Assembly: GCF_000003815.2 (NCBI RefSeq)
Contig: NC_049997.1
Coordinates: 6,619,134-6,683,133, forward strand
Direction: 5' to 3'
Origin: Branchiostoma floridae
Lineage: Eukaryota > Chordata > Leptocardii > Amphioxiformes > Branchiostomatidae
Length of the DNA: 64,000 nucleotides
Under the pieces are notes generated by a model. That model was not told the DNA's origin and searched no databases. It was given only the letters and a program-made list of their open reading frames with translations. Positions within the stretch are counted from its first letter, which is position 1. Every line of letters begins with the position of its first letter. Below are positions 6,459 through 62,200 of this stretch, one piece after another. A program made the position numbers and the translations under genes.

Positions 6459-6678
6459 ATGGATTCCAAGCCACCAGTTTTGCTGCTCTTACTTGCGATC
6501 ATCGGTGCTGCCACTGCATCAGAGCTGTCGCAGTATGGGCAGTGTTCCCTCAATTTCACAGACGGCAAGATCATCAACTTAAGAAAGTCCAAGGAGCTAG
6601 GCGGGGCCATCTTCCTGTCCTCCTTCTCCTCGGACAGCCTTGAGGATTGTTCCCACAGCTGCTGTGACGACACTGCAG
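6459..6678 (+). CDS. MANSC1-like: MANSC gene exon 1: signal peptide and first half of MANSC domain
   Basis: The ATG is preceded by TTTTTTTCTAGG. The exon ends GACACTGCAG|GTGAGA in phase 1. It encodes the signal peptide, the first MANSC cysteine (YGQCSLNF), and the LEDCSHSCCDDTA block. This is the only one of the six copies that reaches a splice donor. Confidence 0.85.
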
Positions 6679-29200: not shown

Positions 29201-32200
29201 CAGTTCCAAAAAAGGTGCTAGGGGGTCCAATTCACAGCACTTACTGTTTGCCCCAAGGGCTATCTAGTATCTACCACTCAAAAATCAGCATGCGCATGTC
29301 AAGAAAACGAGGTACCAAAAATGGACGCTCCAATGCAGTACCTTTGCAAGCCGTTAGGGGGCCCATTATCGAACTTCTACCCACCTACCAAATATGATCA
29401 GGATCCATCCAAGGCTTCTCGAGTTATGCTGTTAACACACAGACACACAGACAGACAAACACGTTCAAAATATACCCTTCTGCCATTCTGGCGAAGGTAA
29501 TCAAGTGTAATGGCATTCAATTGTTCCTGTATAAAAGATACATGGTTGGAATTTGGTATGATGGTACCATTGGCCATGTTCATGGTCTTGAGATAAATGG
29601 CTTCAAAATGATTAAATTTGAAGTTACTTTGCTAGCCTGGGTGCCATTCTGAGTTGGTCTTTTACGGCTTCCATACTCGCTTCATACAAGTTCCCTGGCA
29701 ATTGTTTAGCTGTTTAGCGCCAAAAATGAACATTTCAGGTTCATGTGTCATTGTGTGAGAGACACATAATACTGTAAATGCATTTAAGTTCGCGGGGATT
29801 TAATTTCGCGGTAGCGGGAAAAAGGACTTTTCGCGGTGGTTTTAATTTCGCGGTAGCACCATGCACTGTAGTAACTTAATGCCCTGGAAAAATGGTCGCG
29901 GTGGTTTTAGATTCGCGGTGAAATGGCCAACGCGAAAACCGCGAACATTAATCCACCGCGAACATTTCTGCATTTACAGTATTTGACATGGGGTACCTTG
30001 GATACATTTAGATGGGACGCGCCCATCTAAGAGCATACATTTCGTCCTTTTTTTCAATCTTTGAATTATGTATTATTAGTCAAATTATTACAGATCATTT
30101 ATCAGGAGATAGGCGTATGTCAGTTGGGAAAGGTTTTTCTGCGCGTGAAATATTTGCGAGTGAAATTTTGCGCGTGAAAGATTTATTTTCTGAAACATGT
30201 CAGAAAATGTGCATTACACGATTCTAAGCCAGGAAAATGTATCACAGTCATACAATTTTTCATCTGTCATCTGAAAAAATGTCTGATTTCAGGTCCTTTA
30301 GGAATTAGTCCCTTGAGAAAAGTTCAAATTTTTGGCTGTGAAACCTGAACATTTGAAATTCATTTGTCAGAAATACATGGATGAGTTACTCATAAAAGCT
30401 TTTTTATTGTAAAATGTAACTACTTGAGGCTTTTCTCCTTACTATAACCTTAATTACATTTTTTCACAAGCATATCATTTCACGCGCAGATTTCACATTT
30501 TTTTGCGCGTGATAACTTAACATTTGAAAATCACTTGAAAACCCCAAGACAATCGAAAGAACAAGGTTTTGTAGTGTAGAATGCAACAATAAGACACTTA
30601 ATCGCATTTAATGTCATCTTAATCAAATATTTAAGCTTAAAACCCCCAGAAATTTTTTAAAAAGTTTCCAATCTCTTGGGAGCCAGCCAACCTATTCCCA
30701 ATGGAGCTCAAATTTAACGAAAATTTCAGGAAACAGATGTTAAATCATTTCACATTATTCTAATTAATATCTTCGCAGTACAAATTTTCAGGCATGTTTC
30801 GTGGACTTTATTTTTTCACGCGCACAAAAGCCAACCTTGCCAATTGGTAACGTTGCATAATTTTCAAGCTGGTGACTGGTTCTTTGTCTGGATGTACTTT
30901 CTATTTGAGTAACGTTCATGTATCATTGTCAACTAGCCAATAAACCTCAAGATGTTAAAAGATAGAAATATCTGGCCTCCTTTGTAGTTATTTATTTAAA
31001 AGATAATGTTTATCATACAATCAGCCTGAACAACGGAATAACGCAAATGCGCTAACAAATTTAACTTTGTTTCCAGGACATTTGGCTCTAACTTCAGCTG
31101 GTAAGTTTTTGCTCATGATTACGAATTTGGTGTTTTTTTTTATGAACTGCATGTAAAAAGTAAAGTAAAGCTGCTGTCATCACAAAATAGGGGAAAACTT
31201 TTCATTCCATTTGTTTGATATCTAATTCTTAGCTTTTACAGGTAATCAGTTATAATATCATAAATACTAACACATTCATCTTTTTTCCACGGCCTTGAGA
31301 TATAGTTTATCTGGTAATTTGTGTCAAATTCATTAACATCGGCGATAATAGTTTTGTCCAGTACATGTCCCAGGTATTCTAGTAAAGACGCAGTCAACAA
31401 AACAGGAAGTAGTTCTATAAACATTGCAATAAACCCTGGTATAAACCCTACATGTATGATGAATAAAGAAAATTGATTTTATATTGGCATAATTTTCGCA
31501 TTCTTACCAGGAAACCACGCATTTGAGGTCCTCCGTACTGCAAACCAGACATATAAAGGATCCGACTTCATCTCCCAGGAGTATGAAGGAGTTGACTTCC
31601 TCGTCATCGAGGCGAAGCTGCCAGCTGACGGCCTGTCTGCCACTGAGAACTGGTGCAGGGACTACCAGAACCTCTGTGCCGAGTACGGAAGGAGACCTAC
31701 TGGCTGTGGGGAGGACTGGGCAGTCCAGGGTGGGAGGCTCAGCCACGCAGGCAGAATCCGGTAGGTTTGGTGACATTAAGAACAGCCTTACTGTGCGCTG
31801 GTAATAAATCCTCCCTTGTTTTCTATGCTGGGTATTGGAATGGGAAAATGTAAAAACTAGAACTTTTAACTTAAAAGTCGGTTGTGTACGTATCTTAGTT
31901 ATATTGCTGTACCATCCATCCAGTAAAATGCATTAGTGTTTTGTAAATCATGAAAGGCTGTTTGCATAATCAACATTCTATTGCGTCCAATGTATACCCC
32001 AGAAAAGCGTGATGATTTCACAACCCCTACGAGTTCTGTCTCTCTTGTTATGGAAGAAGTGTTGCCAATTGGTGAGGTTTCTTAAAGATGTTGTGTTTCC
32101 AGGTGTGTAAGTGAGTACAACTCCGACCCCTACATCAACAACGTGCTCGGCTGTGACCCGAGCAGTCGTGTAGCTGCGGCGGCAATCTTGGCTTTTTCAG

Positions 32201-35200
32201 CTGGAGCTACAAGGAGCACGAGTTTGGGCTTTAACGGCTGTGACAGCTGCCACCGTGGGATATACGAAAGCAGATACAGTCTAACCTCGACCTCTTTTGG
32301 CAGTGACGGGACCGGAGACAGGACTGTGTACACCGTGTGCACAGGATCAGCAGGTAAGGATTTGGCACTAATTCTTCTTCTTCTCTGACTGACTCTGGAA
32401 GCCACCAATGTCTTCCTCCCCTAGAAGGCATGTCCAATAATGTCTTTAGTCCAATAGTTTTGAGAACTTCAATCTTCAGTTAGTTACCTTCGCCAAGAAG
32501 GGTTTATTTTGGGTAGCGTTTGTATGTATGTATGTATGTTTGTAGAAGAGCAGCATAACTCGAGAATGCCTGGATGGATTGTATTGATATTCGTCAAGTG
32601 GGTAGGTCTTGATGAGACCTGGACACAATTAGACTTCTGGGCCCCCGGCATGTTACGGTACTGCAGCGGAACTTTGATATTTCAAGTTCTGGACATGCTG
32701 TGGGTACAATTTTTGACTGATAGATAGCTCTTGGTGCCGAAAGTAAGTGGTATAGGTTTGTTTTGAAACTGCAGGGCAGGTTTAGTGTGAGACTTTGAAA
32801 GGGAATAACTCAAGAAGGGGTTGGCGGATTGTCATGATTTTTGGTATGTAGATAGCTCAAGTGATGCCTCACTGCTTAAATGATCTGTTGACCTGGACCG
32901 GTTTTCTGGATTATGATTTTGATTTGTCTGCCACCTTTTATGTCTTATTTGAACTTATATGTTCTGTTGTGTACACCTATTTATTTTCTCTGTAACATTA
33001 CTTTATTTCTGTGTATGTGTCCCTGGGCCCTGTTGAAAATCAATTTGTCAAAACTGAACAGGCCACCCATGCGTCTGAAGATATCAATAAACAATAAATG
33101 AATTGATAAATAAATGCAAATCATACAGCTAATGCAAACATGGCAAAAACCATTTAATGACAAATTTTTTCTTGTGACATGTTAAACATGCTGATGCAGA
33201 TCAAAGATGAACATCACCATGCAGAAATCATGAAAATCTTTAAGTCATTTGCATAACATCTACAAAGCTCTAAACATTTCAAAAAGGTCACCGAACCATT
33301 ATCCCATTTAAAACATTGTTGGTAATCAAGTGGGATGATATTACGCGGCTGATTATAATCATGTATGTCTTAAGGTATTACGGTTGGCTAAATTGGCATT
33401 TTGACCTTCCTTTGTTTCTTATTAATGAATTAGGAAAGAATGGAGCCGTAAAGAATATTAATAAATGGGCATGAACGAATTCTAAATCTGATTTTTTTGG
33501 GGCCAAATTAATGACGTCATCATTTTATTGCCCCTAATATCATTTTTTTTCTATGACAAAATACAGCATTTTGATACATACCATTGCAATGAAACTTTGT
33601 TTGTCGTTGCATGATGATGAAAGCTACAAACTTATAAATGTTTTCTTTGCTCTCTCTAGGCAATAATGAATGTGCAACAGGAAACGGTGGATGTGCCCAT
33701 TTCTGTGTCCACACTCAGACCGGCCACAGGTGTACCTGCCAACGGGGGTTCATGTTAATGGCGGATGGTCATGGCTGTGAAGGTGGAAAACTGTTCAACT
33801 GTAATTTTTTCACACTATGCATGTAATAATGCAATGTGATAAGTTTGCTTGAACTTTAAGTTCTGTACCATTATTGTCATCTAACCTTAAGTTGATCAAA
33901 AATTAACTACAGTTTAGTTTAATGAATGAATGAATGAAGAACTTTATTGCACATTTTTGCCCCACTGGGCTAAGTACGGTTCACATGGTAACAATCATAT
34001 ACATTTACATGATTTATATAGTGTTTAATGAATAGCTTTTCTAGACAAGCAAGTAGACTTGGCCCATATAGATATACTAACGTATTTATGGCGGATGGTC
34101 ATAGCTGTGAGGGTGAGTAACTGCTACACTGTAATCAATTCACAATATGCATGTTATGTGACAATTTGGATTTCATCTCACTCTCTGTATTGTCGCCAAC
34201 AGACCAGTTACACTAAACTTGTTTCATTCCGTTTGTTTGATTGATTTAATTCTTAGCCTTTACAGGTAATCAGTTCTTATTCCTAACACATTCATCTCTT
34301 TTTTTCCACCGCCTGTAGATATAGTTTCAACTGGTAAGTTTTGTCAAATTCATGAAAATCGGCGATAATAAATTTGTCCAGTGCATGCCCAAATTATTCC
34401 AGTAAAGATGCAGTCAACAAAACTGGAAGTAGATCTGTAAACATTGCAATAGACCCAGGTATAAACCCTACATGTATAATGGATAAAGAAAATTGGTTTC
34501 ATATTAATGTCAAAATAGTTATCAATAATAGCATAATTTTCGCATTCTTGCCAGGAAACCACTCATTTGAGGTCCTCCGTACTGCAAACCAGACGTATAA
34601 AGGAGTCGACTTCATCTCCCAGGAGTATGAAGGAATCGACTTCCTCGTCATCGAGGCGAAGCTACCGGCTCACGGCCTGTCTGCCACTGAGAACTGGTGC
34701 AGGGACTACCAGAACCTCTGTGCCGAGTACGGAAAGAGACCAACGGGCTGTGGGGAGGACTGGGCAGTCCATGGTGGGAGACTCAGTAACGAAGGCAGAA
34801 TCCGGTAGGTACTGTGACATTTAGAACAGCCTTACTGTGCGCTGGTAATAAATCCTCCCTTGTTTTCTATGCTGGGTTTGGGAATGTAAAAATTTAAAAA
34901 CTGGAACTTAAGTCGGTCGAGTACATATCTTAGTTACATTGTTGCACCATCCATCCAGTTAAATGTATTAGTGTTTTGTAAATTATGAAAGGCTGTTTGC
35001 ATAATCAACATTCTATTGCGTCCAATGTATACCCCAGAAAAGCGTGATGATTTCACAACCCCTACGAGTTCTGTGTCTTTTGTTAAAATGGAAGAAGTGT
35101 TGCCAATTGGTGAGGTTTCTTAAAGATGTTGTGTTTCCAGGTGTGTAAGTGAGTACAACTCCGACCCCTACATAAACAACGTGCTCGGCTGTTTGTGGGC

Positions 35201-38200
35201 GAGCCGTGTAGCTGCGGTGGCAAACTTGGCTTTTTCAGCTGGAGCTACAAGCAGCACGAGTTTTGGCTTTAACGACTGTAACCGCTGCCAGCGTGGGATA
35301 TACGAGAGCAGATACAGTCTACACTCGACCTCATTTGGCAGTGACGGGACCGGAAACAGGACTGTGTTCACCGTGTGCGCAGGATACGCAGGTAAGGCAG
35401 GATTTGGCACTAATTCTTCTTCTTCTCTGACTGACTCTGGAAGCCACCAATGTCTTCCTCTCCTAGAAGGCATGTCCAATAATGTATTTAGTCCAATAGT
35501 TTTGAGAACATCAATCTTCCGTTAGTTACCTTCGCCAAGAAGGGTATACTTTGGGTAGCGTTTGTATGTATGTATGTATGTTTGTAGAAGAGCAGCATAA
35601 CTCGAGAATGCTTGGATGGATTGTATTGATATTCGTCAAGTGGGTAGGTCTTGATGAGACCTGGACACAATTAGAATTCTGGGCCCCCGGCATGTTACGG
35701 TACTGCAGCTGAACTTTGATATTTTAAGTTCTGGACATGCTGTGGGTGTAATTTTTCAGCGATAGATAGCTCTTGGTGCCGTGAGTAAGTGGTATAGGTT
35801 TGGGCACCCTAGCGACTTGTTTTGAAACTGCAGGTCAGGTTTAGTGTGAGACTTTGAAAGGGAATAACTCAAGAAGGGGTTGGCGGATTGTCATGATTTT
35901 TGGTATGTAGATAGCTTTAGTGCTGCCACATATAATTACATATTGATTATGTAAATCGGAATCTATATTTGCATAATAAATCAGTAAATTGTAAAGAGAA
36001 GAATATTGATAGATATATATTATGCAGAAAAGGACCTAGTTTGCATAATTGATGAGAAAAGAACTCAAGAACGGCTGGATGGATTGGTTTCATACTTAGT
36101 GTGTTGGTAGGGTGTGGCAAAAACTAGAAATTATTAGATTTTGACCCCCTAACGGCTTCCTTTGGTACTCCTCCTGGTCTCATATCTCATGTTCTGAACA
36201 AGCCATGGTCACAATGTTTAAGCGTTAGATAGCGAGTTTGGACCTACAAGTGGCTAGGGTTAGAATTGCAGGGACATTTTTGTATAAATATAATTCCGAA
36301 ATGGATAACTCAAGAATGGAAAAACGGGTTTTTATGACTTTTGGTATGTAGGTAGCTTCAGTTGGCCAAAATTTACAAGATTAAATACTAATTTTGCAAA
36401 ATGGGGTGACATTTGCATAATAAATGATAATATTCTATCAAAGTATTTCTTTTAATGTATCTCTTGTCCAGGACATGATACGGTCTTGACTTTTAGTTGG
36501 CAGATAGCTTTTGACGCCAGGACAAGGTGGGGCAGGTTTGAGCCCCCTAACGATTTATTTCTGAAACTTCAGGGACATTGTCAAGACATTCAAAAGAGGA
36601 TAACTGAAACAAAGGAACGTCCAATTTGCATCATTTTAGGCATGCAGGTAGCTTAGACAAACTTTCTCAGAATGATGTTAGCAAATGATGACTTAATTTG
36701 GAAACTGTATGGTTAAACTGTTTTCCATAACTGGACTTCAATAGATGTAGTATATGTAATTTATGATAGGTGGAACATAAATAGACATCAACTATTCAAA
36801 TCAGCTAATGCAAAAATGGCAAAAACCACTTAATGATAAATTATGAGATTTTTTCTTGTGACATGTTTAAGCTGATTAATGATGAACATCATTAAGCATA
36901 CATTATTGAAATGTTTAGTCATTTGCATAACATATACAAAGCTCTAAATATTTCATGAAGGTAGGAGGTCACCGAACTCTAGTTTTCTATCGATTCAAAG
37001 TCAGATTATTTTAAACTATAGCGTGTGCTATGGCTGCATTCTATACCACTTATAGATACATGCCTTACCATGTCTCAATTGGTCTTTCAAAGTTGACCAA
37101 ATGTGTACGTTATCAGTATTTACAGTCCTGTCAATCATCATGATCAAACAGAATGCGCTACCTCTTCCCGTTTAGGGCCTCGTTGGCGATCACGTGGGGT
37201 GAGGAACGAGCAGATTTACTCAACCTAATTACCATAATGCTTGTCTTACCCGTGCTCTTTACTCTCTAGGTAATGACGAATGTGCAACAGGAAACGGTGG
37301 ATGTGCACATTTCTGTGTCCACACTCAGAGCGGCCACAGGTGTACCTGCCGACGGGGGTTCATATTAATCGCGGATGGTCATGGCTGTGAAGGTGGGAGA
37401 CTGTTTAGCTGTAATTCGTTCACATGATTCACATAATGAATTAAATAAAAATGAAATGTAAAACGTTTATTGACCTTAGCTTATTGACCCATGTCCAATA
37501 ACCAATAGACCTATAGTTGTTGACTATTTGTTTAGTTAAAAATATATTTTTATATGATTCCATGTAGAGTAGGGAAATAATTCACACATATTGACAAATT
37601 TATTCTTTTTTTTCACGGCGTTTAGATATAACTTCCACTGGTAAGTTTCTGTTCAATAATTCGGAATTGGTGATAATGTTTTGTTCAGTACAAATTCAAG
37701 GTACAAATAAGATGCAGTCGAGACAACCAGGAGGTAGTTCTGTAAAGATTAGTGTTCTGCGCTGTTTGATGTAAACGCATTCCGTCTTAAGGTAAATGCA
37801 TTGTAGAACATGGTAATGTATATGCAACATTTAAAATTGAGCCATTGCGACGTGTGGATTTGCTTGAAGTTGAGGAATTTGTTTCGCCAAGAAGGTTGTA
37901 TTTTCGCTAGCGTGGTGGTATTGAACAGCGTAATTCAAAGACTTTGAACGTATTCCATCATTTGAATTGTTTAGGTCCTGACAAATGATACGAAGTTGAG
38001 GCCCTTATAGGCGAGACCTCACTTCTGAAAATTTAGTCTGAACATGCAACGGTCAGCACTTTCGAGGTAGAGAATATTTCTGCTCGAAAAGCGTGGCAGA
38101 AGCATGGGATATCGATATCAAGCAGTGTCGTTTTGAACTGCAGCGTTGTCTTTGGGACCTAAAACTGAGTACTTCGAGAAGACGTGAAGAGTTTGCCTCG

Positions 38201-41200
38201 TATAATCAACCAGCAAATATTAAAGTTATAGGATTAGAATAATGCAAATACAATTTTACTTGCAATTTTTTTTCTTGGTGTCAAGCGTCTTTATTACTAC
38301 CATTAGTTTCCTTATTCTCGTCAGGAAACCACGCATTCGAGATCCTCCGTACCGCAAACCAACACTATGAAGGATTCAACTTCTTCGTTATTAAGGCCAG
38401 GCTACCAGTTCACGGCCTGTCTGCCACTGAGAACTGGTGCAGGGACTACCAGAACCTCTGTGCTGAGTACGGAAGGAGACCAACGGGCTGTGGGGAGGAC
38501 GGGGCTGTCGAGGGTGGGAGTTACAGCCACGACGGCAGAATCCGGTAGGTTCTGTGCTATTTAGAACAGTCATACTGAGCGCTGGTAGTAAATTCTATCT
38601 GGTGTTCTCTGCTTGGGTATAGGCATTTTTAACATTGATAGCAGCCAGGTACATATTATGGTTATATGATTGCACCATCTTGTATCTAAATATATTCAAT
38701 TTATAAATTATGAAATAGGGTTTACATAATCTCATCCTATTTCATCAATTGCATATTTCAGAAAAGTGTGATGATTTCATAGACCCTATGAAATAACTTC
38801 TTTGACATTTCGCAATACGTAATGATTAGTACATACCTTCTTATGATCTCTCGGTGAATTGGTTCTCAGCCCACCGATGATTAATTATATGATGATGAAT
38901 GAAATACTAAATGGAATGTCCATTTATGGAAAACACTCATATTACCAAGAAATGGTTACTTAGAAGATAGATTTAAAGGTGTAACTTCAACTTTAATGAC
39001 CAAGTTGGCATTTATTCTTCTCTATTAATAAGTTTATCAGCGGCATTGTCAGAGTTCTCTATTATCTATTTTTAAATGGAGCAAGAGTTATCAATTGGTA
39101 AGATATCTTTGAAATGTTGTTGTGTTTCTAGGTGCGTGACTGATTACAACTCTGACCCCTACATCAACAACGTGCTCGGCTGTGACTGGATGAGCCGTGT
39201 ACATCACGTGGCAAACTTGGCTTTTTCAGATGAAGCTACATATTTCACGAGTTTTGGCTTTAACGGCTGTAACCACTGCAGCCGTGGGATATGGGAGAGC
39301 ATACACGCTCTGCACTTGACCTCATTTGGCAGGGACGGAACTGGAGACAGGACTGTGTACACCGTGTGCACAGGATCAGCAGGTAAGGATTTGGTGCCTA
39401 TTAACACACCACAGAATAAGCATCGATATAAAAAAAAACATTTAGCTCTGGTTCGAATTTGATTGGTCTGGCGGGGAATGGTGAGGTTGTTACTTGTGCT
39501 GCAAAATGATTTCGGATAAAAGAAGTTAGCACCAGAATCCACATTTCCCCAATGTTTATTTCTTTTCATCAACGCATTGTGTACTTAATTCATCATTTTC
39601 CACACATGATAACAGAACTTTAACCAACCAACGACGTCATTACGGTATATTTCAATGTTGTTCCCACAAGCTCTGTATTCGCAAATGTCCATGATGGTGA
39701 ACCAAGTAATAAAATGTTTTTCTGTATATATCTCAACTGCATGGTAGATGTATTCTTATTGATGTAACAACCAGTTACAATAATGTATGCTTAACCCCGT
39801 TATTCTATTGATAATATACTGATGTTATTCTATGAATATGCTACAGAAAACTGTGGGTGTGGCCATATATGTGTCCACAATCAGAGCAGCTACAGTTGTA
39901 CCTGCCGACAGGGCTTCATATTAATGCCGGATGGTCATGGCTGTGAAGGTGAGAAACTGTATTTTTTCACAACATGCATTTAATCAAAAAATGATAATGT
40001 TATTCGTATATATGTTGATATGAGAAACAGAATATGATCCTTTGGGAGTTGTAGCTTTTTTCCAAACACCTAATGAAATAATATCTGTGCAACTTATAAT
40101 GAATAACAATAATGAAGTACACTAATGTCAATTCAGAACATGAAGTAATCAATAGGTCAGTCATGTGTTTATTTGATGACTTTCATCCAATAATATTTGT
40201 GCCGACTGCATTCGGAATTTTTTGCAGAAGACGAATGTGCAACAAACAATGCCGGGTGCGCCCAAAACTGCACCAATGTCCCAGGAGGTTACTCATGTTT
40301 CTGTCGACATGGATTCGTGTTGATGTCAGATGGACATGGTTGTGAAGGTGGGATTATTGTAGACTGATAACTTTTTCTTAATATCATATCCATATTCTAT
40401 GAATTTATCTATATAAAAGCTAGTAGCAACAGATAATTAAAGGCTATTGGAAGGCTAACATTAACTAAGATGCTTCTTACACGTACTCGTCATGCTGATA
40501 TTTACCTTTGCCAAAATGGCTAAGGTTATGTTTTGGGCGTGTTTGTGTGTCTGTGTGTCTGTGTGTTAACAGCATAACTCGAGAAGCCTTGGATGGATCC
40601 TGATGATATTTGGTAGGTGGGTAGGGGTCGGGAAAACGAAGGTCAAGTTTGATAATGGGTCCCCTAGCGGCTTACTAAGGTACTGCAGCTGAAACTCAAT
40701 TTTTTAAATCTCGTGTTCTGGACATGCTGCGGTCATGATTTATGGGTGGTAGATAGCCCACGGGGCAGAGAGTATGTGCTGTGAGTTTGGCTCCCTAGCG
40801 GCTTTTTTGGTACTGCAGGCGCCAGTTTCCTTTCAGACTTTGGACGAGAATAACTCTACAACGTGTTGACGGATCTTCATGATTTTTCTTTTGTAGATAA
40901 AATTAATGTTGACTTACATAATGGAATACTAATTATGTAAATCAACAGCTAATTTGCATAATTAATGAGGAAAGTTTATAAATCCACTGCATTCCATGAT
41001 AGGAGTTTCAAACTTGTCACATATGTAGCTGAGAAGGAGAGAAATGTCAATAGATATCAACTATGCAAATGATGACCTCATTTGCATAATTAATGAACAT
41101 GTTGACGGACCATCATGTTTTTGGTATGTAGGTAGCGTAGGTGAAGACCTACATAATGAGATACCAATTATGCAAATCAACAGATAATTTGCATAATTAA

Positions 41201-44200
41201 TGAGGACATTTTATAAATCCACTACATTCCATGATAGGACTTTGAAACTTGTCACATATGTAGCTGAGAAAGAGAGAAATGGCAATGCATATTAATCATG
41301 CAAATGACGACCTTATTTGCATAATTAATGAGAAAATATGAACGTGTTGACGGATCGTCACGATTTTTGGCATGTAGATAGCCTAAGTGAAGACTTACAC
41401 AATGCGATACTTATTATGCAAATTAACAGCTAATTTGCATAATTGATTATGAAAAGTTCATAAATCCACTGCATTCCATTATAGTAGTTTTAAAGTTGTC
41501 ACACATGTAACTGAGAAAGAGGAAAGAGAGTATAAGGGGTGTATTTAAAGACTTTGAAAGAGAATAAGTCAAGAAAGGATCATCATGATTCTTGGTATGC
41601 TGATAGCTTAAGCAATGCTTGATACCATTTGATTGATTGATTGTAAGTTGGGGCCTTATTTGCATAATTAATGCCGAAATTTTACAAACCAACTCCAAGC
41701 ATATAATTATGAAACAAAATGAAATGAGTAACGCATTTGTCTACAGACACCATACTACATAACAAACCTAGTTTATTTGGCAAAGGTATGTGTTCGTGGA
41801 ACTCTAGTTCCTAGATTGAGTAAGAAAATCAATACACGTACAAATTAAACCGTTACATCGTTTGAAGAAAACAGTATCACTGCTGTTGGAGTCACTAAGA
41901 AAGACTCCCTATTCTAGAGTGTTTTCAATTTCAATAGAGTAGATGACACACTCACCAGATGTATCGTTGTGATCGTAAATTTTGTGTACTTTTCAAATAT
42001 GTATTTTAAGACCTTTCGGACTTACATATCATATATTCATACGGTTGGTATACATTTAATGACTCCTGTAAATCTTAAGAGACTTATCATATGGCCATCA
42101 ATTTTTTTGAGAATGACGTAGACATAATATTTAACAATTTTAAGAAGTTTGACGCTATTTCGACGTCTAAGGACGCAATTATGACGTCATCAATTTGACT
42201 GCATTGGGTAGAACCATGAAAAAGGGATATTCCCAGAAAACTTCAGGGTATGCTACAAAAATATAACAGCAAGTGCAGATAACATAATTACAATGTTTGT
42301 TACGAATTTTGTTGCCAATAGCAACATGAATGACGTCAAAATGACGTCATAAAATGACGTCTTGCATATCTAAGATAACAGTCGGGCTCCGCCATTTTAC
42401 ATTTACCACCTTGATTTTTTTTATATACATTTTTATCGCAAAATAATCTCAAAAGACAATGGACATAGACTAAAAACGTTTATTTAAACATTTCTTAATG
42501 AAAAAATAACAAGGTAGTTACAAATTTCAGGGATAATAATCTAGTTATCCTTGATCTGGTCATATGGTCCGCCATCTTGGCTTTTGACGGATGACGTCAT
42601 CATATTAGCATAATTTATTCATATTTAATTACAAAAGATATTCCAAATATTATGAGATTTTATATATGTAGTAAATTAGCAGTAATATAGCAAATAATCG
42701 TGAAAATACATTGTTAGAACCGAAATTAGCGATTTTCGTGAAAAAATGCCTGTCAACAAACGGTTGCCATGGCAACACAACAGCATTGGAAATTTGTGAA
42801 GTTATTACCAATCGAATTGTAAGAAAACTCACCAAATTTGGTGGCTATATTATAGCGTAAGCCGTTTTTGCGTTATGGAAGATGAAAGTTGGCTCAGGCC
42901 TCAACCGCCCCAGCCTGAATAGGGTTAAATCTCAGCTTACAGCTACAAGGCATAAGGAATGGCATAACAATAACGTTTGGTCATTTGAGGACTTTGAGCG
43001 GATATGATACTATTGTCTCGTCTGTATTTTGAACTCATTGCAGAAGACGAATGTGCAACAAACAATGCCGGGTGTGCCCAAAACTGCACCAATGTCTCAG
43101 GAGGTTACTCATGTTTCTGTCGACATGGATTTGTGTTGATGTCAGATGAACATCGTTGTAAAGGTGGGTTAATGCTATTACCATTAGTTTTGTTTAATGA
43201 CATATTTAGATATTTAATCAACTTTTGCTGTTTAGAAAAGGTGAGCAAAGGGTAGCAACTGGTGGATATCAACACAACTGGAATCTAGTAATGCAAAAAA
43301 TCGGATTTAAACTTTGATGTTCACAGGTGCCAAACGTTGTTAAAATTAACATAACTTCCGTTATTGTCAGGAAACCACTCATTTGAGGTGCTCCGTACTG
43401 CAAACCAGACGTATAAAGGAGTCGACTTCATCTCCCAGGAGTATGAAGGAGTCGACTTCCTCGTCATCGAGGCGAAGCTGCCAGCTGACGGCCTGTCTGC
43501 CACTGAGAACTGGTGCAGGGACTACCAGAACCTCTGTGCCGAGTACGGAAGGAGACCTACGGGCTGTGGGGAGGACTGGGCAGTCCAGGGTGGGAGGCTC
43601 AGCCACACAAACAGAATCCGGTAGGTTCGGTGACATTAAGAACAGCCTTACTGTGCGCCGTGGTAATAAATCCTCCCTTGTTTTCTATGCTGGGTATGGG
43701 AATGGGAAAATGTAAAAACTGGAACTTTTAACTTAAAAGTCGGTTGTGTACGTATCTTAGTAATATTGTTGTACCATCCATCCAGTAAAAGGCATTAGTG
43801 TTTTGTAAATTATGAAAGGCTGTTTGCATAATCAACATTCTATTGCGTCCAATGTATACCCCAGAAAAGCGTGATGATTTCACAGCCCCTACGAGTTCTG
43901 TCTCTTTTGTTAAAATGGAAGAAGTGTTGCCAATTGGTGAGGTTTCTTAAAGATGTTGTGTTTCTAGGTGTGTAAGTGAGTACAACTCCGACCCCTACAT
44001 AAACAACGTGCTCGGCTGTGACCCGAGCAGCCGTGTAGCTGCGGTGGAAAACTTGGCTTTTTCAGCTGGAGCTACAAGGAGCACGAGTTTTGGCTTTAAC
44101 GACTGTAACAGCTGCCAGCGTGGGATATACGAAAGCAGATACAGTCTAACCTCGACCTCATTTGGCAGTGACGGGACCGGAGACAGGACTGTGTACACCG

Positions 44201-50200: not shown

Positions 50201-53200
50201 NNNNNNNNNNNNNNNNNNNNNNNNNNNNNNNNNNNNNNNNNNNNNNNNNNNNNNNNNNNNNNNNNNNNNNNNNNNNNNNNNNNNNNNNNNNNNNNNNNNN
50301 NNNNNNNNNNNNNNNNNNNNNNNNNNNNNNNNNNNNNNNNNNNNNNNNNNNNNNNNNNNNNNNNNNNNNNNNNNNNNNNNNNNNNNNNNNNNNNNNNNNN
50401 NNNNNNNNNNNNNNNNNNNNNNNNNNNNNNNNNNNNNNNNNNNNNNNNNNNNNNNNNNNNNNNNNNNNNNNNNNNNNNNNNNNNNNACTACCAGAACCTC
50501 TGTGCTGAGTACGGAAGGAGACCAACGGGCTGTGGGGAGGACGGGGCTGTCGAGGGTGGGAGTTACAGCCACGACGGCAGAATCCGGTAGGTTCTGTGCT
50601 ATTTAGAACAGTCATACTGAGCGCTGGTAGTAAATTCTATCTGGTGTTTTCTGCTTGGGTATAGGCATTTTTAACATTGATAGCAGCCAGGTACATATTA
50701 TGGTTATATGATTGCACCATCTTGTATCTAAATATATTCAATTTATAAATTATGAAATAGGGTTTACATAATCTCATCCTATTTCATCAATTGCATATTT
50801 CAGAAAAGTGTGATGATTTCATAGACCCTATGAAATAACTTCTTTGACATTTCGCAATACGTAATGATTAGTACATACCTTCTTATGATCTCTCGGTGAA
50901 TTGGTTCTCAGCCCACCGATGATTAATTATATGATGATGAATGAAATACTAAATGGAATGTCCATTTATGGAAAACACTCATATTACCAAGAAATGGTTA
51001 CTTAGAAGATAGATTTAAAGGTGTAACTTCAACTTTAATGACCAAGTTGGCATTTATTCTTCTCTATTAATAAGTTTATCAGCGGCATTGTCAGAGTTCT
51101 CTATTATCTATTTTTAAATGGAGCAAGAGTTATCAATTGGTAAGATATCTTTGAAATGTTGTTGTGTTTCTAGGTGCGTGACTGATTACAACTCTGACCC
51201 CTACATCAACAACGTGCTCGGCTGTGACTGGATGAGCCGTGTACATCACGTGGCAAACTTGGCTTTTTCAGATGAAGCTACATATTTCACGAGTTTTGGC
51301 TTTAACGGCTGTAACCACTGCAGCCGTGGGATATGGGAGAGCATACACGCTCTGCACTTGACCTCATTTGGCAGGGACGGAACTGGAGACAGGACTGTGT
51401 ACACCGTGTGCACAGGATCAGCAGGTAAGGATTTGGTGCCTATTAACACACCACAGAATAAGCATCGATAAAAAAAAAAACATTTAGCTCTGGTTCGAAT
51501 TTGATTGGTCTGGCGGGGAATGGTGAGGTTGTTACTTGTGCTGCAAAATGATTTCGGATAAAAGAAGTTAGCACCAGAATCCACATTTCCCCAATGTTTA
51601 TTTCTTTTCATCTACGCATTGTGTACTTAATTCATCATTTTCCACACATGATAACAGAACTTTAACCAACCAACGACGTCATTACGGTATATTTCAATGT
51701 TGTTCCCACAAGCTCTGTATTCGCAAATGTCCATGATGGTGAACCAAGTAATAAAATGTTTTTCTGTATATATCTCAACTGCATGGTAGATGTATTCTTA
51801 TTGATGTAACAACCAGTTACAATAATGTATGCTTAACCCCGTTATTCTATTGATAATATACTGATGTTATTCTATGAATATGCTACAGAAAACTGTGGGT
51901 GTGGCCATATATGTGTCCACAATCAGAGCAGCTACAGTTGTACCTGCCGACAGGGCTTTATATTAATGCCGGATGGTCATGGCTGTGAAGGTGAGAAACT
52001 GTATTTTTTCACAACATGCATTTAATCAAAAAATGATAATGTTATTCGTATATATGTTGATATGAGAAACAGAATATGATCCTTTGGGAGTTGTAGCTTT
52101 TTTCCAAACACCTAATGAAATAATATCTGTGCAACTTATAATGAATAACAATAATGAAGTACACTAATGTCAATTCAGAACATGAAGTAATCAATAGGTC
52201 AGTCATGTGTTTATTTGATGACTTTCATCCAATAATATTTGTGCCGACTGCATTCGGAATTTTTTGCAGAAGACGAATGTGCAACAAACAATGCCGGGTG
52301 CGCCCAAAACTGCACCAATGTCCCAGGAGGTTACTCATGTTTCTGTCGACATGGATTCGTGTTGATGTCAGATGGACATGGTTGTGAAGGTGGGATTATT
52401 GTAGACTGATAACTTTTTCTTAATATCATATCCATATTCTATGAATTTATCTATATAAAAGCTAGTAGCAACAGATAATTAAAGGCTATTGGAAGGCTAA
52501 CATTAACTAAGATGCTTCTTACACGTACTCGTCATGCTGATATTTACCTTTGCCAAAATGGCTAAGGTTATGTTTTGGGCGTGTTTGTGTGTCTGTGTGT
52601 CTGTGTGTTAACAGCATAACTCGAGAAGCCTTGGATGGATCCTGATGATATTTGGTAGGTGGGTAGGGGTCGGGAAAACGAAGGTCAAGTTCGATAATGG
52701 GTCCCCTAGCGGCTTACTAAGGTACTGCAGCTGAAACTCAATTTTTTAAATCTCGTGTTCTGGACATGCTGCGGTCATGATTTATGGGTGGTAGATAGCC
52801 CACGGGGCAGAGAGTATGTGCTGTGAGTTTGGCTCCCTAGCGGCTTTTTTGGTACTGCAGGCGCCAGTTTCCTTTCAGACTTTGGACGAGAATAACTCTA
52901 CAACGTGTTGACGGATCTTCATGATTTTTCTTTTGTAGATAAAATTAATGTTGACTTACATAATGGAATACTAATTATGTAAATCAACAGCTAATTTGCA
53001 TAATTAATGAGGAAAGTTTATAAATCCACTGCATTCCATGATAGGAGTTTCAAACTTGTCACATATGTAGCTGAGAAGGAGAGAAATGTCAATAGATATC
53101 AACTATGCAAATGATGACCTCATTTGCATAATTAATGAACATGTTGACGGACCATCATGTTTTTGGTATGTAGGTAGCGTAGGTGAAGACCTACATAATG

Positions 53201-56200
53201 AGATACCAATTATGCAAATCAACAGATAATTTGCATAATTAATGAGGACATTTTATAAATCCACTACATTCCATGATAGGACTTTGAAACTTGTCACATA
53301 TGTAGCTGAGAAAGAGAGAAATGGCAATGCATATTAATCATGCAAATGACGACCTTATTTGCATAATTAATGAGAAAATATGAACGTGTTGACGGATCGT
53401 CACGATTTTTGGCATGTAGATAGCCTAAGTGAAGACTTACACAATGCGATACTTATTATGCAAATTAACAGCTAATTGCATAATGATATGATNNNNNNNN
53501 NNNNNNNNNNNNNNNNNNNNNNNNNNNNNNNNNNNNNNNNNNNNNNNNNNNNNNNNNNNNNNNNNNNNNNNNNNNNNNNNNNNNNNNNNNNNNNNNNNNN
53601 NNNNNNNNNNNNNNNNNNNNNNNNNNNNNNNNNNNNNNNNNNNNNNNNNNNNNNNNTTTGATTGATTGATTGTAAATTGGGGCCTTATTTGCATAATTAA
53701 TGCCGAAATTTTACAAACCAACTCCAAGCATATAATTATGAAACAAAATGAAATGAGTAACGCATTTGTCTACAGACACCATACTACATAACAAACGTAG
53801 TTTATTTGGCAAAGGTATGTGTTCGTGGAACTCTAGTTCCTAGATTGAGTAAGAAAACCAATACACGTACAAATTAAACCGTTACATCGTTTGAAGAAAA
53901 CAGTATCACTGCTGTTGGAGTCACTAAGAAAGACTCCCTATTCTAGAGTGTTTTCATTTTCAATAGAGTAGATGACACACTCACCAGATGTATCGTTGTG
54001 ATCGTAAATTTTGTGTACTTTTCAAATATGTATTTTAAGACCTTTCGGACTTACATATCATATATTCATACGGTTGGTATACATTTAATGACTCCTGTAA
54101 ATCTTAAGAGACTTATCATATGGCCATCAATTTTTTTGAGAATGACGTAGACATAATATTTAACAATTTTAAGAAGTTTGACGCTATTTCGACGTCTAAG
54201 GACGCAATTATGACGTCATCAATTTGACTGCATTGGGTAGAACCATGAAAAAGGGATATTCCCAGAAAACTTCAGGGTATGCTACAAAAATATAACAGCA
54301 AGTGCAGATAACATAATTACAATGTTTGTTACGAGTTTTGTTGCCAATAGCACAAGAATGACGTCAAAATGACGTCATAAAATGACGTCTTGCATATCTA
54401 AGATAACAGTCGGGCTCCGCCATTTTACATTTACCACCTTGAATTTTTTTATATACATTTTTATCGCAAAATAATCTCAAAAGACAATGGACATAGACTA
54501 AAAACGTTTATTTAAACATTTCTTAATGAAAAAATAACAAGGTAGTTACAAATTTCAGGGATAATAATCTAGTTATCCTTGATCTGGTCATATGGTCCGC
54601 CATCTTGGATTTTGACGGATGACGTCATCATAATAGCATAATTTATTCATATTTAATTATAAAAGATATTACAAATATTATGAGATTTTATATATGTAGT
54701 AAATTAGCAGTAATATAGCAAATAATCGTGAAAATACATTGTTAGAACCGAAATTAGCGATTTTCGTGAAAAAATGCCTGTCAACAAACGGTTGCCATGG
54801 CAACACAACAGCATTGGAAATTTGTGAAGTTGTTACCAACCGAATTGTAAGAAAACTCACCAAATTTGGTGGCTATATTATAGCGTAAGCCGTTTTGGCG
54901 TTATGCAAGATGAAAGTTGGCCCAGGCCTCAACCGCCCCAGCCTGAATAGGGTTAAATTTCAGCTTACAGCTACGAGGCATAAGGAATGGCATAACAATA
55001 ACGTTTGGTCATTTGAGGACTTTGAGCGGATACGATTGTCTCGTCTGTATTTTGAACTCATTGCAGAAGACGAATGTGCAAAAAACAATGCCGGGTGTGC
55101 CCAAAACTGCACCAACGTCCCAGGAGGTTACTCATGTTTCTGTCGACATGGATTCGTGTTGATGTCAGATGAACATGGTTGTAAAGGTGGGTTAATGCTA
55201 TTATCATTAGTTTTATTTAATGACATATTTAGATATTTAATCAACTTTTGCTGTTTACAAAAGGTGAGCAAAAGGTAGCAACTGGTGAATATCAACACAA
55301 CTGGAATCTAGTAATGCAAAAAATCGGATTTAAACTTTGATGTTCACTTATGCCAAACGTTGTTAAAATTAACATAACTTCCGTTATTGTCAGGAAACCA
55401 CTCATTTGAGGTCCTTTTTGGCATGTAGATAGCCTAAGTGAAGACTTACACAATGCGATACTTATTATGCAAATTAACAGCTAATTTGCATAATTGATTA
55501 TGAAAAGTTCGGCCTGTCTGCCACTGAGAACTGGTGCAGGGACTACCAGAACCTCTGTGCCGAGTACGGAAGGAGACCTACGNNNNNNNNNNNNNNNNNN
55601 NNNNNNNNNNNNNNNNNNNNNNNNNNNNNNNNNNNNNNNNNNNNNNNNNNNNNNNNNNNNNNNNNNNNNNNNNNNNNNNNNNNNNNNNNNNNNNNNNNNN
55701 NNNNNNTGCTGGGTATTGGAATGGGAACATTTAAAAACTGGAACTTAAGTCGGTCGTGTACATATATTAGTTATATTGTTGCACCATCCATCCAGTTAAA
55801 TGTATTAGTGTTTTGTAAATTATGAAAGGCTGTTTGCATAATCAACATTCTATTGCGTCCAATGTATACCCCAGAAAAGCGTGATGATTTCACAACTCAT
55901 ACGAGTTCTGTCTCTTTTGTTAAAATGGAAGAAGTGTTGCCAATTGGTGAGGTTTCTTAAAGATGTTGTGTTTCCAGGTGTGTAAGTGAGTACAACTCCG
56001 ACCCCTACATCAACAACGTGCTCGGCTGTTCGTGGGCGATCCGTGTAGCTGCGGTGGCAAACTTGGCTTTTTCAGCTGGAGCTACAAGCAGCAAGAGTTT
56101 TGGCTTTAACGACTGTAACCGCTGCCAGCGTGGGATATACGAGAGCAGATACAGTCTACACTCGACCTCATTTGGCAGTGACGGGACCGGAAACAGGACT

Positions 56201-59200
56201 GTGTTCACCGTGTGCGCAGGATACGCAGGTAAGGCAGGATTTGGCACTAATTCTTCTTCTTCTCTGACTGACTCTGGAAGCCACCAATGTCTTCCTCCCC
56301 TAGAAGGCATGTCCAATAATGTATTTAGTCCAATAGTTTTGAGAACATCAATCTTCCGTTAGTTACCTTCGCCAAGAGGGGTATACTTTGGGTAGCGTTT
56401 GTATGTATGTATGTATGTTTGTAGAAGAGCAGCATAACTCGAGAATGCCTGGATGAATTATATTGATATTCGTCAAGTGGGTAGGTCTTGATGAGACCTG
56501 GACACAATTAGAATTCTGGGTCCCCGGCATGTTACGGTACTGCAGCTGAACTTTGATATTTTAAGTTCTGGACATGCTGTGGGTGTAATTTTTCAGCGAT
56601 AGATAGCTCTTGGTGCCGTGAGTAAGTGGTATAGGTTTGGGCACCCTAGCGACTTGTTTTGAAACTGCAGGTCAGGTTTAGTGTGAGACTTTGAAAGGGA
56701 ATAACTCAAGAAGGGGTTGGCGGATTGTCATGATTTTTTGTATGTAGATAGCTTTAGTGCTGCCACATATAATTACATATTGATTATGTAAATCGGAATC
56801 TATATTTGCATAATAAATCAGTAAATTGTAAAGAGAAGAATATTGATAGATATATATTATGCAGAAAAGGACCTAGTTTGCATAATTGATGAGAAAAGAA
56901 CTCAAGAACCGCTGGATGGATTGGTTTCATACTTAGTGTGTTGGTAGGGTGTGGCAAAAACTAGAAATTATTAGATTTTGACCCCCTAACGGCTTCCTTT
57001 GGTACTCCTCCTGGCCTCATATCTCATGTTCTGAACAAGCCATGGTCACAATGTTTAAGCGTTAGATAGCGAGTTTGGACCTACAAGTGGCTAGGGTTAG
57101 AATTGCAGGGACATTTTTGTATAAAAATAATTCCGAAATGGATAACTCAAGAATGGAAAAACGGGGTTTTATGACTTTTGGTATGTAGGTAGCTTCAGTT
57201 GGCCAAAATTTACAAGATTAAATACTAATTTTGCAAAATGGGGTGACATTTGCATAATAAATGATAATATTCTATCAAAGTATTTCTTTTAATGTATCTC
57301 TTGTCCAGGACATGATACGGTCTTGACTTTTAGTTGGCAGATAGCTTTTGACGCCAGGAGAAGGTGGGGCAGGTTTGAGCCCCTTAACGTTTTCTTTGTG
57401 AAACTCCAGGGACATTTTTGTCAAGACATTCAAAAGAGGATATCTGAAACAAAGGAACGTCCAATTTGCATCATTTTAGGCATGCAGGTAGCTTAGACAA
57501 ACTTTCTCAGAATGATGTTATGCAAATGATGACTTAATTTGGAAACTGTATGGTTAAACTGTTTTTCATAACTGGACTTCAATAGATGTAGTATATGATA
57601 GGTGGAACATGAATAGACATCAACTGTGCAAATCAGCTAATGCAAAAATGGCACAAACCACTTAATTATAAATTATGAGATTTTTTTCTTGTGACATGTT
57701 TAAGCTGATTAATGATGAACATCATTAAGCATAAATTATTGAAAGGTTTAGTCATTTGCATAACATATACAAAGCTCTAAATATTTTATGAAGGTATGAG
57801 GTNNNNNNNNNNNNNNNNNNNNNNNNNNNNNNNNNNNNNNNNNNNNNNNNNNNNNNNNNNNNNNNNNNNNNNNNNNNNNNNNNNNNNNNNNNNNNNNNNN
57901 NNGATTCAAAGTCATACTATTTTAAACTATAGCGTGTGCTATGGCTGCTTTCTATACCACTTATTGATACATGCCTTACCATGTCTCAATTGGTCTTGCA
58001 AAGTTGACCAAATGTGTACGTAATCAGTATTGACAGTCCTGTCAATCATCATGATCAATCAGAATGCGCTACCTCTTCCCGTTTAGGGCCTCGTTGGCGA
58101 TGACGTGGGGTGAGGAACGAGCAGATTTACTCAACCTGATTAGCATAATGCTTGTCTTACCCGTGCTCTTTACTCTTTAGGTAATGACGAATGTGCAACA
58201 GGAAACGGTGGATGTGCCCATTTCTGTGTCCACACTCAGAGCGGACACAGGTGTACCTGCCGACGGGGGTTCATGTTAATGGCGGATGGTCATGGCTGAG
58301 AAGGTGGGAGACTGTTTAGCTGTAATTCGTTCACATGATTCACATAATGAATTGAATGACAATGTAATGTAAAACATTTATTGACCTTAGCTTATTGACC
58401 CATGTCCAATAACCAATAGACCTATAGTTGTTGAATATTTGTTTAGTTAAAAATATATTTTTATATGATTCCATGTAGAGTAGGGAAATAATTCACACAT
58501 ATTGACAAACTTATTCTTTTTTTCACGGCTTTTAGATATAGCTTCCACTGGTAAGTTTCTGTTCAATAATTCGGAATTGTTGATAATGTTTCGTTTAGTA
58601 CAAATCCAAGGTACAATTAAGATGCAGTCGAGACAACCAGGAGGTAGTTCTGTAAATATTATTGTTCTGCGCTGTTTTGATGTAAACGCATTCCGTCTTA
58701 AGGTAAATGAATTGTAGAACATGGTAATGTATGTGCAACATTTAAAATTGAGCCATTGCGACGTGTGGAATTACTTGAAGTTGAGCATTTTTTTTGGCCA
58801 AGAAGGTTGTATTTTCGCTAGCGTGGTGGTATTGAACAGCGTAATTCAAAGACTTTAAACGTATTCCATCATTTGAATTGTTTAGGTTCTGACAAATGAT
58901 ACGAAGTTGAGACCCTTATAGGCGAGACCTCACTTCTGAAAATTTAATCTGAACATGCAACGGTCAGAACTTTAGAGGTAGATAATATCTCTGCTCGAAA
59001 AACGTTGCAGAAGCTTGGGATATCAAGCAGTGTCGTTTTGAACTGCAGCGTTCTCTTTGGGACCTAAAACTGAGTAGATCGAGAAGACGTGAAGTGTTTG
59101 TCTCGTATAATCAACCAGCAAATATTAACGTTATAGGATTTAGAATTATGCAAATACAATTTTACTTGCAATTTTTTTTCTTAGTGTCAAGCGTCTTTAT

Positions 59201-62200
59201 TACTACCATTAGTTTCCTTATTTTCGTCAGGAAACCACGCATTTGAGATCCTCCGTACCGCAAACCAACACTTTGAAGGATTCAACTTCTTCGTTATTAA
59301 GGCCAGGCTACCAGGTCACGGCCTGTCTGCTACTGAGAACTGGTGCAGGGACTACCAGAACCTCTGTGCCGAGTACGGAAGGAGACCAACGGGCTGTGGG
59401 GAGGACTGGGCAGTTGAGGGTGGGAGTCGCAGCCACGCAAGCAAAATCCGGTAGGTTCTGTTACATTTAGAACAGCCTTACTGTGCACTGGCAGTAAATT
59501 CTATCTGGTTTTCTCTGCTTGGGTATAGGCATTTTTAACATTGATAGCAGCCAGGTACATATTATGGTTATATGATTGCACCATCTTGTATCTAAATATA
59601 TTCAATTTATTAATTATGAAATAGGGTTTACATAATCTCATCCTATTTCATCAATTGCATATTTCAGAAAGGTGTGATGATTTCATAGACCCTATGAAAT
59701 AACGTTCTTTGACATTTCGCACTACGTAATGATTAGTACATACCTTCTTATGATCTCTCGGTGAACATGCAGCCCACCGATGATTAATTATATGATGATG
59801 AATGAAATACTAAATGGAATGTCCATTTATGGAAAACACTCATATTACCAAGAAATGGTTACTTAGAAGATAGATTTAAAGGTGTAACTTCAGCTTTAAT
59901 GACCAAGTTGGCCTTTATTTTCTCTATTAATAAGTTTATCAGCGGCATTGTCAGAGTTCTCTATTATCTATTTTTAAATGGAGCAAGAGTTATCAATTGG
60001 TAAGATATCTTTGAAATGTTGTTGTGTTTCTAGATGCGTGACTGATTACAACTCTGACCCCTACATCAACAACGTGCTCGGCTGTTACTGGATGAGCCGT
60101 GTACATCACGTGGCAAACTTGGCTTTTTCAGCTGGAGCTACAAGCAGCACGAGTTTTGGCTTTAACGACTGTAACCGCTGCCAGCGTGGGATATACGAGA
60201 GCAGAAACGCTCTGCACTCGACCTCATTTGGCATGGACGGAACTGGAGACAGGACTGTGTACACCGTGTGCACAGGATCAGCAGGTAAGGATTTGGTGTC
60301 TATTAACACACCACAGGATGTACTATTGATATACAAATGAGCAACGTTGGCAAGAGAGTAACCCCATCTTTTAACATTCCCATATATGTTCATGCACAAT
60401 AGATGCTGCGATGAAAATGTTATTGGCCAACACTTGTTTATCATTTCAGGACCCTGTCCGACGCTGACTCCACCAGACAACGGAGTGCTGAGTCCTATGG
60501 GAGCAAACTCCCATAATGACGAGGTGACGTTCACCTGTAACCAGAATTATGAGCTGGAAGGAGCCCCTAGTGTGAAGTGCCAAGCGAACGGAACTTGGAG
60601 CGACCGTATTCCAACCTGTACACGTGAGACAGTTTTTTTTTAAAGATTTAAACTTTTGTTTTAGTTCTTAGTTCAGACAAAACATGTCGCTACAGAAACT
60701 GCGCCATTGCTGTAGTTCAAATCAGATACAAACAACTCGATGACATTTTGAAGCAGAAATTTAGACGTACTGATATTTTAACATTATATAGATCGTCTAT
60801 CGAGGTAACTTTTGTTGACCATAATATTTGCCTCTTTTGCAGATTCCGACCAATGTGCGACACTAAATGGCCGATGTGACCAGATCTGTACTAACTTCCC
60901 GGGCAGCTATAAATGCTCCTGCCGACAGGGTTTCGTACTGATGGCAGACGCTCACGGTTGTGGAGGTCGGAAAATGGTCCCTTGTAATATGCAGATATGC
61001 TTTGTTAATCGAAGATGCTGACTTATGCCTCGGGTATTTTCGCATGTGGGAAAGGAATAAAAGTGAACGTGTCTCTCTAGCTGCTTAGATTTAAAACTGC
61101 AGTGTCTCCTTAAACGTCTGTCCTTGTCCCCACTCAAGGGGGTCATACTTTTGATCTTCTACTCGTACAATACGTACAACACGTACAGAAGGGAAGGTTT
61201 TGGGTGGTCAGCCCTGGTAGACGAAAAACGAGCAGACGACAGCAATACAAAAGTGAAAATAGCAGTGTGGTTTGAAATTCATACTCATATTTGACTCCAT
61301 ACCAACGTCTAATGTACAATGGTGAAAAATTGATATTGTTTATAACTGTGACGTTTTCCTCTTTGATTGCTAAGTGTGTGGCCACTGTCGCGGCGGGGAT
61401 GTCAACTGTGACCCGACGTCGGGTGTCTGCTCGGCTGGGTGTCAGGAGGGATGGAAAACACAGCTTTGTAATGAAGGTACTGCCTTCTTTGTTAAAAAAA
61501 GCACTTTTGATTTCTCTTTCGTCACATGATAGATAATGTGATTTCATTTTAATACATTGTAGTAAATCAGAGCAGGAGAAGACCCATTCGTTGGACATTA
61601 ATTGAAGTTTTGCATAGTTAAAAAAATTACGTTCTAAATCAATGGTTGGCGTAAGATTTTGTGATCAGTTTTTATATATTTGGAGAGTAAAGATACACAG
61701 AAGTAAAAACATACCATCTGCTTTTGTTTTGCTGCGTTGCATGCTTCTAATTCTAATCTTCCCACAGCACGTTTAATTTCTTTTTCGCCACATGATATTA
61801 ATATGATCTAATGTTAAATACATTGTCGTAAATCAGAGCAGGCAAAGAAATCTTCCCTTGTACTCATTCGTTGGACATTGCATACGTTCTAAATCAAAGG
61901 TTTGCGTAAGGTTTTGTCATCTGTTGTCATGTAAATGGAAAGTAAAGATACACGTACGTAGCTAGTATCAAATTGAAAAACATCATAATATTATGTTTTT
62001 CTTCTGCTTCCAATTCTGCTCTTCCCACAGCCGTGGAGCCTCCAATCAACCTGGCCATTTCTGACGTCACAGATAAAGGATTCAAGATCACGTGGTCCCA
62101 GTCCCCAGAGCCTGACCTTTATGGATATCGCGTCGTGGTGTCAAAGTTAGACATGACGACAGCTGTCAATCAAACCACGAATCAGACATCACTTCTGGTG

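Follow-up and report, generated by a model that had tools for sequence, protein, structure and literature searches.

Eight-cysteine, two-exon modules as putative ectodomain units of polycystin-1-like receptors in Branchiostoma floridae

A 64,000-nucleotide stretch of the Branchiostoma floridae genome (RefSeq assembly GCF_000003815.2, contig NC_049997.1, forward-strand positions 6,619,134 to 6,683,133; hereafter the window) carries eight tandem plus-strand copies of a two-exon, eight-cysteine module at 31511-60284, delimited by motif location, exon alignment and splice-site reading. The array is well supported by sequence as part of a polycystin-1-like receptor gene, in which a GPS motif is followed by a first transmembrane helix (TM1), a PLAT domain and a channel domain, and the module is probably (at about 0.65) a ligand-binding ectodomain unit that was expanded in polycystin-1-like receptor-channels. 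As one gene, the receptor would read (module-EGF)n, sushi, EGF, EGF-like, two fibronectin III (FN3) domains, a domain-free stretch, GPS, TM1, PLAT and channel. A first-pass annotation of the window had missed this gene context, in which the module would be the main ectodomain unit, and had seen the module at this locus alone, whereas it recurs at at least 82 places in the genome.

Exon structure of the module

Complete exon pairs were found for copies 1, 2, 3, 4 and 8 only, and copies 5, 6 and 7 are damaged. In window positions, the exons are:

31511..31760, plus strand: module 1 exon 1, 250 nt, 3 Cys, from splice sites and translation
32103..32353, plus strand: module 1 exon 2, 251 nt, 5 Cys, with genome-wide matches
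34555..34804, plus strand: module 2 exon 1, 250 nt
35141..35391, plus strand: module 2 exon 2, 251 nt
38325..38544, plus strand: module 3 exon 1, 220-nt form
39132..39382, plus strand: module 3 exon 2, 251 nt
43371..43620, plus strand: module 4 exon 1, 250 nt
43968..44218, plus strand: module 4 exon 2, 251 nt
46492..46741, plus strand: module 5 exon 1, 250 nt
47188..47421, plus strand: module 5 exon 2, 5' end lost in N gap 47088-47187
50487..50586, plus strand: module 6 exon 1, 5' part lost in N gap 49906-50486
51174..51424, plus strand: module 6 exon 2, 251 nt, coding letters identical to module 3
55394..55582, plus strand: module 7 exon 1, interrupted by 96 inserted bp identical to 41364-41459, then by an N gap
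55978..56228, plus strand: module 7 exon 2, 251 nt
59231..59450, plus strand: module 8 exon 1, 220-nt form
60034..60284, plus strand: module 8 exon 2, 251 nt, by eye a mosaic of modules 3 and 2

Exon 1 measures 250 nt in four copies (1, 2, 4 and 5) and 220 nt in two (3 and 8), bordered in these six copies by an AG acceptor and a CCG/GTAGGT donor, and exon 2 measures 251 nt in all seven copies with both ends (1, 2, 3, 4, 6, 7 and 8). The fixed lengths described in the first-pass annotation thus hold within the window; elsewhere in the genome they do not, exons delimited by rule, some with wrong ends, spanning 142-250 nt (exon 1) and 251-302 nt (exon 2), and fixed length is a local property of the window array. 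Phases are 1-2 for exon 1 and 2-1 for exon 2, so that the module (156-166 residues) has an inner phase of 2 and an outer phase of 1 on both sides, and each exon pair could be gained or skipped in frame. The likeness among copies is far beyond chance, copy 1 matching the others at E 7e-127 to 5e-33, with a further 37-nt piece at 1e-9. The eight exon pairs, both sets of phases, the three cysteines of exon 1 and five of exon 2, and the core motifs ENWCRDYQNLC, RPTGCGED, FGFN-C-x2-C-RGI and RTVYTVC were all recovered as the first-pass annotation had given them, which supports its description of a symmetric phase-1, extracellular, eight-cysteine module.

For comparison of members across the genome, 22 rows were aligned (16 of 24 automatically spliced modules and 6 joined by hand). 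Eight spliced modules were omitted, namely three with cysteine counts of 12, 7 and 6, three with exon 1 shortened by the donor rule, and two near-duplicates, and the invariant cysteines of this alignment are partly due to row selection. Fixed cores alternate with variable positions, which fall mostly at residues 68-81, 101-105, 120-121 and 127-150 (module 1 numbering), and the 250-nt form of exon 1 has ten additional residues beside a similar stretch, which by eye reads like an internal duplication. In a fuller set, all eight cysteines are kept in 28 of 33 spliced rows, and the five exceptions comprise two truncated exon delimitations and three real losses: cysteines C3 and C5 together (contig C5, 26371569), cysteines C4 and C6 together (contig C19, minus strand, 6566760), and cysteine C5 alone (contig C13, minus strand, 20688503). 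The paired losses, each taken as a single event, suggest C3-C5 and C4-C6 as two of the module's disulfides; the lone loss of C5 speaks against strict pairing of this kind. In one module on contig C5, a probable pseudo-exon, exon 2 is split between two frames beside an unbroken near-copy.

Receptor context and recurrence in the genome

Beyond the window edge, on the same strand as the array, a GPS with an HL/T site, one hydrophobic helix, a PLAT domain and a polycystin cation channel were found. The GPS, with the motif CHCNHLTAF and its HL/T cleavage site just before TM1, passed the Pfam cut-off on joined exons (36.7 bits, 6.2e-09), as did one GPS exon alone. PLAT follows directly after TM1 and passed the cut-off on two joined exon pieces (31.8 bits, 2.5e-07); taken singly, one piece fell below the cut-off and the other was an open frame without a match. 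About 5.7 kb past the TM1 exon, two joined exons matched PKD_channel (PF08016; 63.1 bits, 3.3e-17), and in the PDB this channel part was matched better by PKD2L1 and polycystin-2 than by PKD1L3. The pore region of the second channel exon reads LGLFDY, with leucine where PKD2-type filters presumably have an acidic residue, and this leucine may change ion selectivity.

A protein search of the same 513-Mb genome with the module gave at least 153 exon matches, and a search with a divergent member gave at least 155, mostly at the same places. Among the matches listed, modules occupy at least 82 places, including two with exon 2 only (C19 6675106 and C137) and some exon-1 fragments, in at least 33 clusters of 1 to about 13 modules on contigs C4, C5, C7, C9, C12, C13, C15, C18, C19, C137, C270, C274 and C281. 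Counting itself, the GPS-TM1 exon has 63 genomic matches. Of the 33 listed clusters, 21, which hold 67 of the 82 modules, have such an exon on their own strand no further than 40 kb downstream, and none has one in that range on the opposite strand; order and strand are the same in all 21, at distances of 9.7-27.5 kb on six contigs. On five contigs, 19 of 23 clusters were linked in this way, against at most 3 in 2000 random placements, with a 40-kb limit chosen after the distances had been seen and with tandem clusters on C5 and C13 that are not independent. The link is no local accident.

At least 49 of the 63 GPS-TM1 loci are followed downstream by a PLAT exon no more than 6 kb away or by a channel exon no more than 30 kb away, in a tally that used 54 of at least 158 channel matches, 16 of 84 PLAT matches with one duplicate entry among them, and the window gene's own PLAT and channel exons, left out matches visibly far from GPS-TM1 exons, had no random control, and applied a 30-kb limit that is loose among tandem genes. 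At least 16 of the 21 module-linked loci have a listed PLAT or channel exon downstream, and the 14 loci without such support may have exons among the unlisted matches. For 42 of the 63 loci, no module cluster is listed within 40 kb upstream. By these counts, the predicted polycystin-1-like repertoire of this genome is strikingly large.

Within the array, EGF exons alternate with the modules (starts at 33660, 37270, 40228, 43044, 49312, 52270, 55067 and 58181), with a phase-1 acceptor in all eight and a phase-1 donor found in six, and module 8 is followed in turn by exons for sushi and EGF domains, a short exon rich in cysteine, and a pair of FN3 exons. Four EGF sequences were scanned, including a degenerate one and the EGF that follows sushi, and all passed Pfam cut-offs for EGF-type families. 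These exons are:

33660..33782, plus strand: EGF, phase 1 acceptor, end approximate; Pfam FXa_inhibition and cEGF over cut-off
37270..37392, plus strand: EGF, phase 1-1
39837..39948, plus strand: degenerate EGF-like, no AG acceptor in open frame, first Cys replaced; Pfam FXa_inhibition and cEGF over cut-off
40228..40347, plus strand: EGF (EGF_CA), phase 1-1
43044..43163, plus strand: EGF, phase 1-1
49312..49434, plus strand: EGF, phase 1-1
51879..51990, plus strand: degenerate EGF-like, duplicate of the 39837 exon
52270..52389, plus strand: EGF, phase 1-1
55067..55186, plus strand: EGF, phase 1-1
58181..58303, plus strand: EGF, phase 1 acceptor, end approximate
60450..60623, plus strand: sushi, phase 1-1; Pfam Sushi 1.1e-12
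60843..60966, plus strand: EGF (EGF_CA), phase 1 acceptor, end approximate
61375..61476, plus strand: short cysteine-rich EGF-like, no Pfam match, conserved in two other C19 clusters
62031..62306, plus strand: FN3, Pfam fn3 9.3e-10
62629..62895, plus strand: FN3, Pfam fn3 7.6e-11

The two degenerate exons, present in both copies of a duplicated block, are read as a decaying EGF exon. As far as the other C19 clusters were read, one has the sushi, EGF, EGF-like and both FN3 exons downstream, and another has the EGF and EGF-like exons.

Family, array growth and alternative explanations

Module 1 gave no Pfam match up to E=10, one sub-threshold NCBIfam match (choice_anch_V, E 0.023), and a single match to PDB sequences (E 0.038 over 26 residues) that was read as chance. 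Across the 22 modules, Pfam gave two weak sub-threshold matches, RtxA_C (0.0052) and DUF5977 (0.37), in one member each, and a profile of the 22 had no PDB match at E up to 10. The earlier failure to place the module in a named family was thus reproduced, with nothing significant found in Pfam-A, NCBIfam or PDB sequences. A viral or bacterial origin was rejected, since no relative was confirmed among prokaryotic and viral contigs in seeded scans, and a likeness to other cysteine-rich folds (CTLD, SRCR, WSC) was dropped for want of a supporting Pfam match. In the open-licence literature searched, no paper was listed that deals with this module or with an expansion of polycystin-1 in amphioxus. 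The negative result comes from sequence methods, and it is possible, if not the likelier case, that the module represents a known disulfide-rich fold that has diverged beyond the reach of sequence profiles. The three sub-threshold matches are consistent with this, as are the lectin and WSC domains that the available parts of two papers describe in the ectodomains of polycystin-1 relatives (PMC1934368, PMC5318412); the lack of any Pfam lectin, WSC, SRCR or kringle match in the 22 members, and of any PDB profile match, argues the other way.

Block comparison within the window showed array growth by block duplication. The blocks 31508-43389 and 43368-55412, spaced about 12 kb apart, share 95-99.7% identity, most breaks falling at N gaps, and within them 38445-41452 and 50487-53491, at a shift of about 12 kb, are 99.7% identical and adjoin N gaps; they represent either a recent duplication or an assembly artefact. 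The window holds ten runs of N, and the eight copies counted may in part reflect assembly, the exact copy number being uncertain next to these gaps and the 99.7% identical block. That unresolved haplotypes or gap filling repeated one ~12-kb block, inflating the count, would explain such identity over 3 kb beside N gaps and the 96-bp piece in module 7 exon 1, but the other 17 similar block pairs differ by 1-13%, and arrays of 6 and about 13 modules stand at two other C19 places; we consider this explanation doubtful. By eye, module 8 exon 2 resembles module 3 apart from an internal segment that looks like module 2, and the arrays would grow by tandem duplication while exchanging pieces through gene conversion. 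In a tree built from 25 modules, good support was obtained for 5 of 22 inner branches, modules of the same array tended to group without forming one clade, and two minus-strand C19 modules were placed among those of the window. Other repeats in the window comprise tandem arrays at 5662-6589, 11982-12742, 25578-26189 and 40911-41525 (units of 159, 224, 114 and 235 bp) and a minus-strand retroelement at 6963-9770 with two adjacent open frames, the reverse transcriptase match (RVT_1) being over the cut-off in the first and below it in the second, which also holds a PHD finger.

Ratios of nonsynonymous to synonymous change (dN/dS), computed on automatically spliced exons including wrong ends and on overlapping pairs, had medians of 0.47 for exon 1 (37 pairs) and 0.83 for exon 2 (26 pairs) at dS <0.3, and at larger dS were 0.41 and 0.39 for exon 1 and 0.58 and 0.49 for exon 2.

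Several points weigh against the ligand-binding receptor unit. The splicing of the modules to the GPS-TM1 part is predicted from phase, strand and repetition. In the ~9 kb that separate the second FN3 exon from GPS, no domain was recognised and two long open frames had no Pfam match; an open frame with a YADD motif (~67977-68489, window numbering), by eye a probable reverse transcriptase fragment, also lies between these exons. Of the 11 transmembrane segments that mark the polycystin-1 family, those beyond TM1 are assumed, with contig DNA 6693000-6697300 lying between the exons for PLAT and those for the channel. Neither the N-terminus nor a signal peptide of the receptor was found; upstream of the first module in three C19 clusters, tblastx gave conserved stretches, many of them interrupted by stop codons, that were read as non-coding. 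None of 91 listed PF02010 (REJ) matches lies at a module cluster, and the module-bearing subfamily appears to lack this domain, which is usual but not universal in the polycystin-1 family. Twelve of the 33 listed clusters have no GPS-TM1 exon within 40 kb (three each on C4 and C9, one each on C7, C18, C137, C270 and C281, and one on C5, 40.6 kb away), and the late choice of the 40-kb limit and the dependence among tandem clusters count here as well. The modules are a proposed binding surface, the exon 2 ratio drops at larger dS on the exons and pairs described, and gene conversion alone could give both the exon 2 excess and the module 8 mosaic.

The unlinked clusters, the domain-free 9 kb and the joining of exons on genomic DNA would also suit arrays that encode secreted or other surface proteins merely upstream of polycystin-1-like genes. 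This is very improbable in view of the constant order, strand and spacing of the 21 linked clusters, the phase-1 sushi, EGF and FN3 exons that follow the last module, and the downstream layout shared by two other C19 clusters as far as read. Within the same receptor, the module might instead be mainly a structural spacer that sets ectodomain length and elasticity, with no specific ligand and with exon 2 changing by drift and gene conversion. The regular alternation with EGF exons, the strongly conserved cysteines and core motifs, the varying number of modules per listed cluster, the apparent conversion mosaic of module 8 and an exon 2 dN/dS well below 1 at larger dS all fit a spacer; the concentration of variation between fixed motifs, and a dN/dS higher in exon 2 than in exon 1 in each dS class, do not, and we hold the spacer unlikely.

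Proposed function and comparison with known systems

In the preferred reading, the module as a ligand-binding unit, the arrays would bind either a ligand or an adjacent surface. Such binding, or a pull, would act via the GAIN domain implied by the GPS, self-cleaved at HL/T; a buried stalk would become exposed once the ectodomain is bound or pulled, and the signal would pass to the channel part, both steps following the mechanism model for polycystin-1 (GPS self-cleavage, exposure of the buried stalk, signalling via the channel part) in the available portion of PMC9672506. Exon 2 would change more freely than exon 1, as would suit a recognition surface, and its dN/dS excess and the module 8 mosaic may fit diversification of such a surface. 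On this basis a wider proposal is put forward tentatively, as improbable on present evidence: a new disulfide-rich recognition domain, in ~80 copies over about twenty polycystin-1-like genes in one lineage, with gene conversion and a faster exon 2, would form a diversified surface-recognition system, with gametes, self or microbes as targets and a polycystin channel as readout. The module would extend the known repertoire of shuffled extracellular modules by a domain with four disulfides. To our knowledge, the ligands of polycystin-1 ectodomains are still poorly known, and dozens of polycystin-1-like loci, a third of them behind module clusters, would form a natural set for finding what the ectodomain senses.

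Adhesion G-protein-coupled receptors (GPCRs) share the GPS and a mosaic ectodomain with the receptor described here, but have a seven-helix bundle, whereas here PLAT and a polycystin channel follow the first helix; identity as an adhesion GPCR was rejected for this reason. In the available text of a paper on amphioxus GPCRs, 37 adhesion GPCRs are counted and polycystin and PLAT do not occur (PMC2246102). EGF-mosaic matrix and receptor proteins share the phase 1-1 EGF, sushi and FN3 exons, and differ in that the repeated partner here is the two-exon, eight-cysteine module without a Pfam match. The polycystin-1 family (PKD1, PKD1L1-3, PKDREJ and sea urchin SpREJ) shows the same order of GPS, TM1, PLAT and channel behind a long, modular ectodomain, a layout described in the accessible parts of PMC1934368 and PMC5318412, which also give REJ as absent from PKD1L3 and zebrafish Pkd1l2b. 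Relative to this family, the receptor here combines the new module with EGF, sushi and FN3 and has no REJ among the listed matches nearby, and PLAT or channel support at at least 49 of 63 GPS-TM1 loci compares with 5 human and 10 sea urchin proteins in the available part of PMC1934368.

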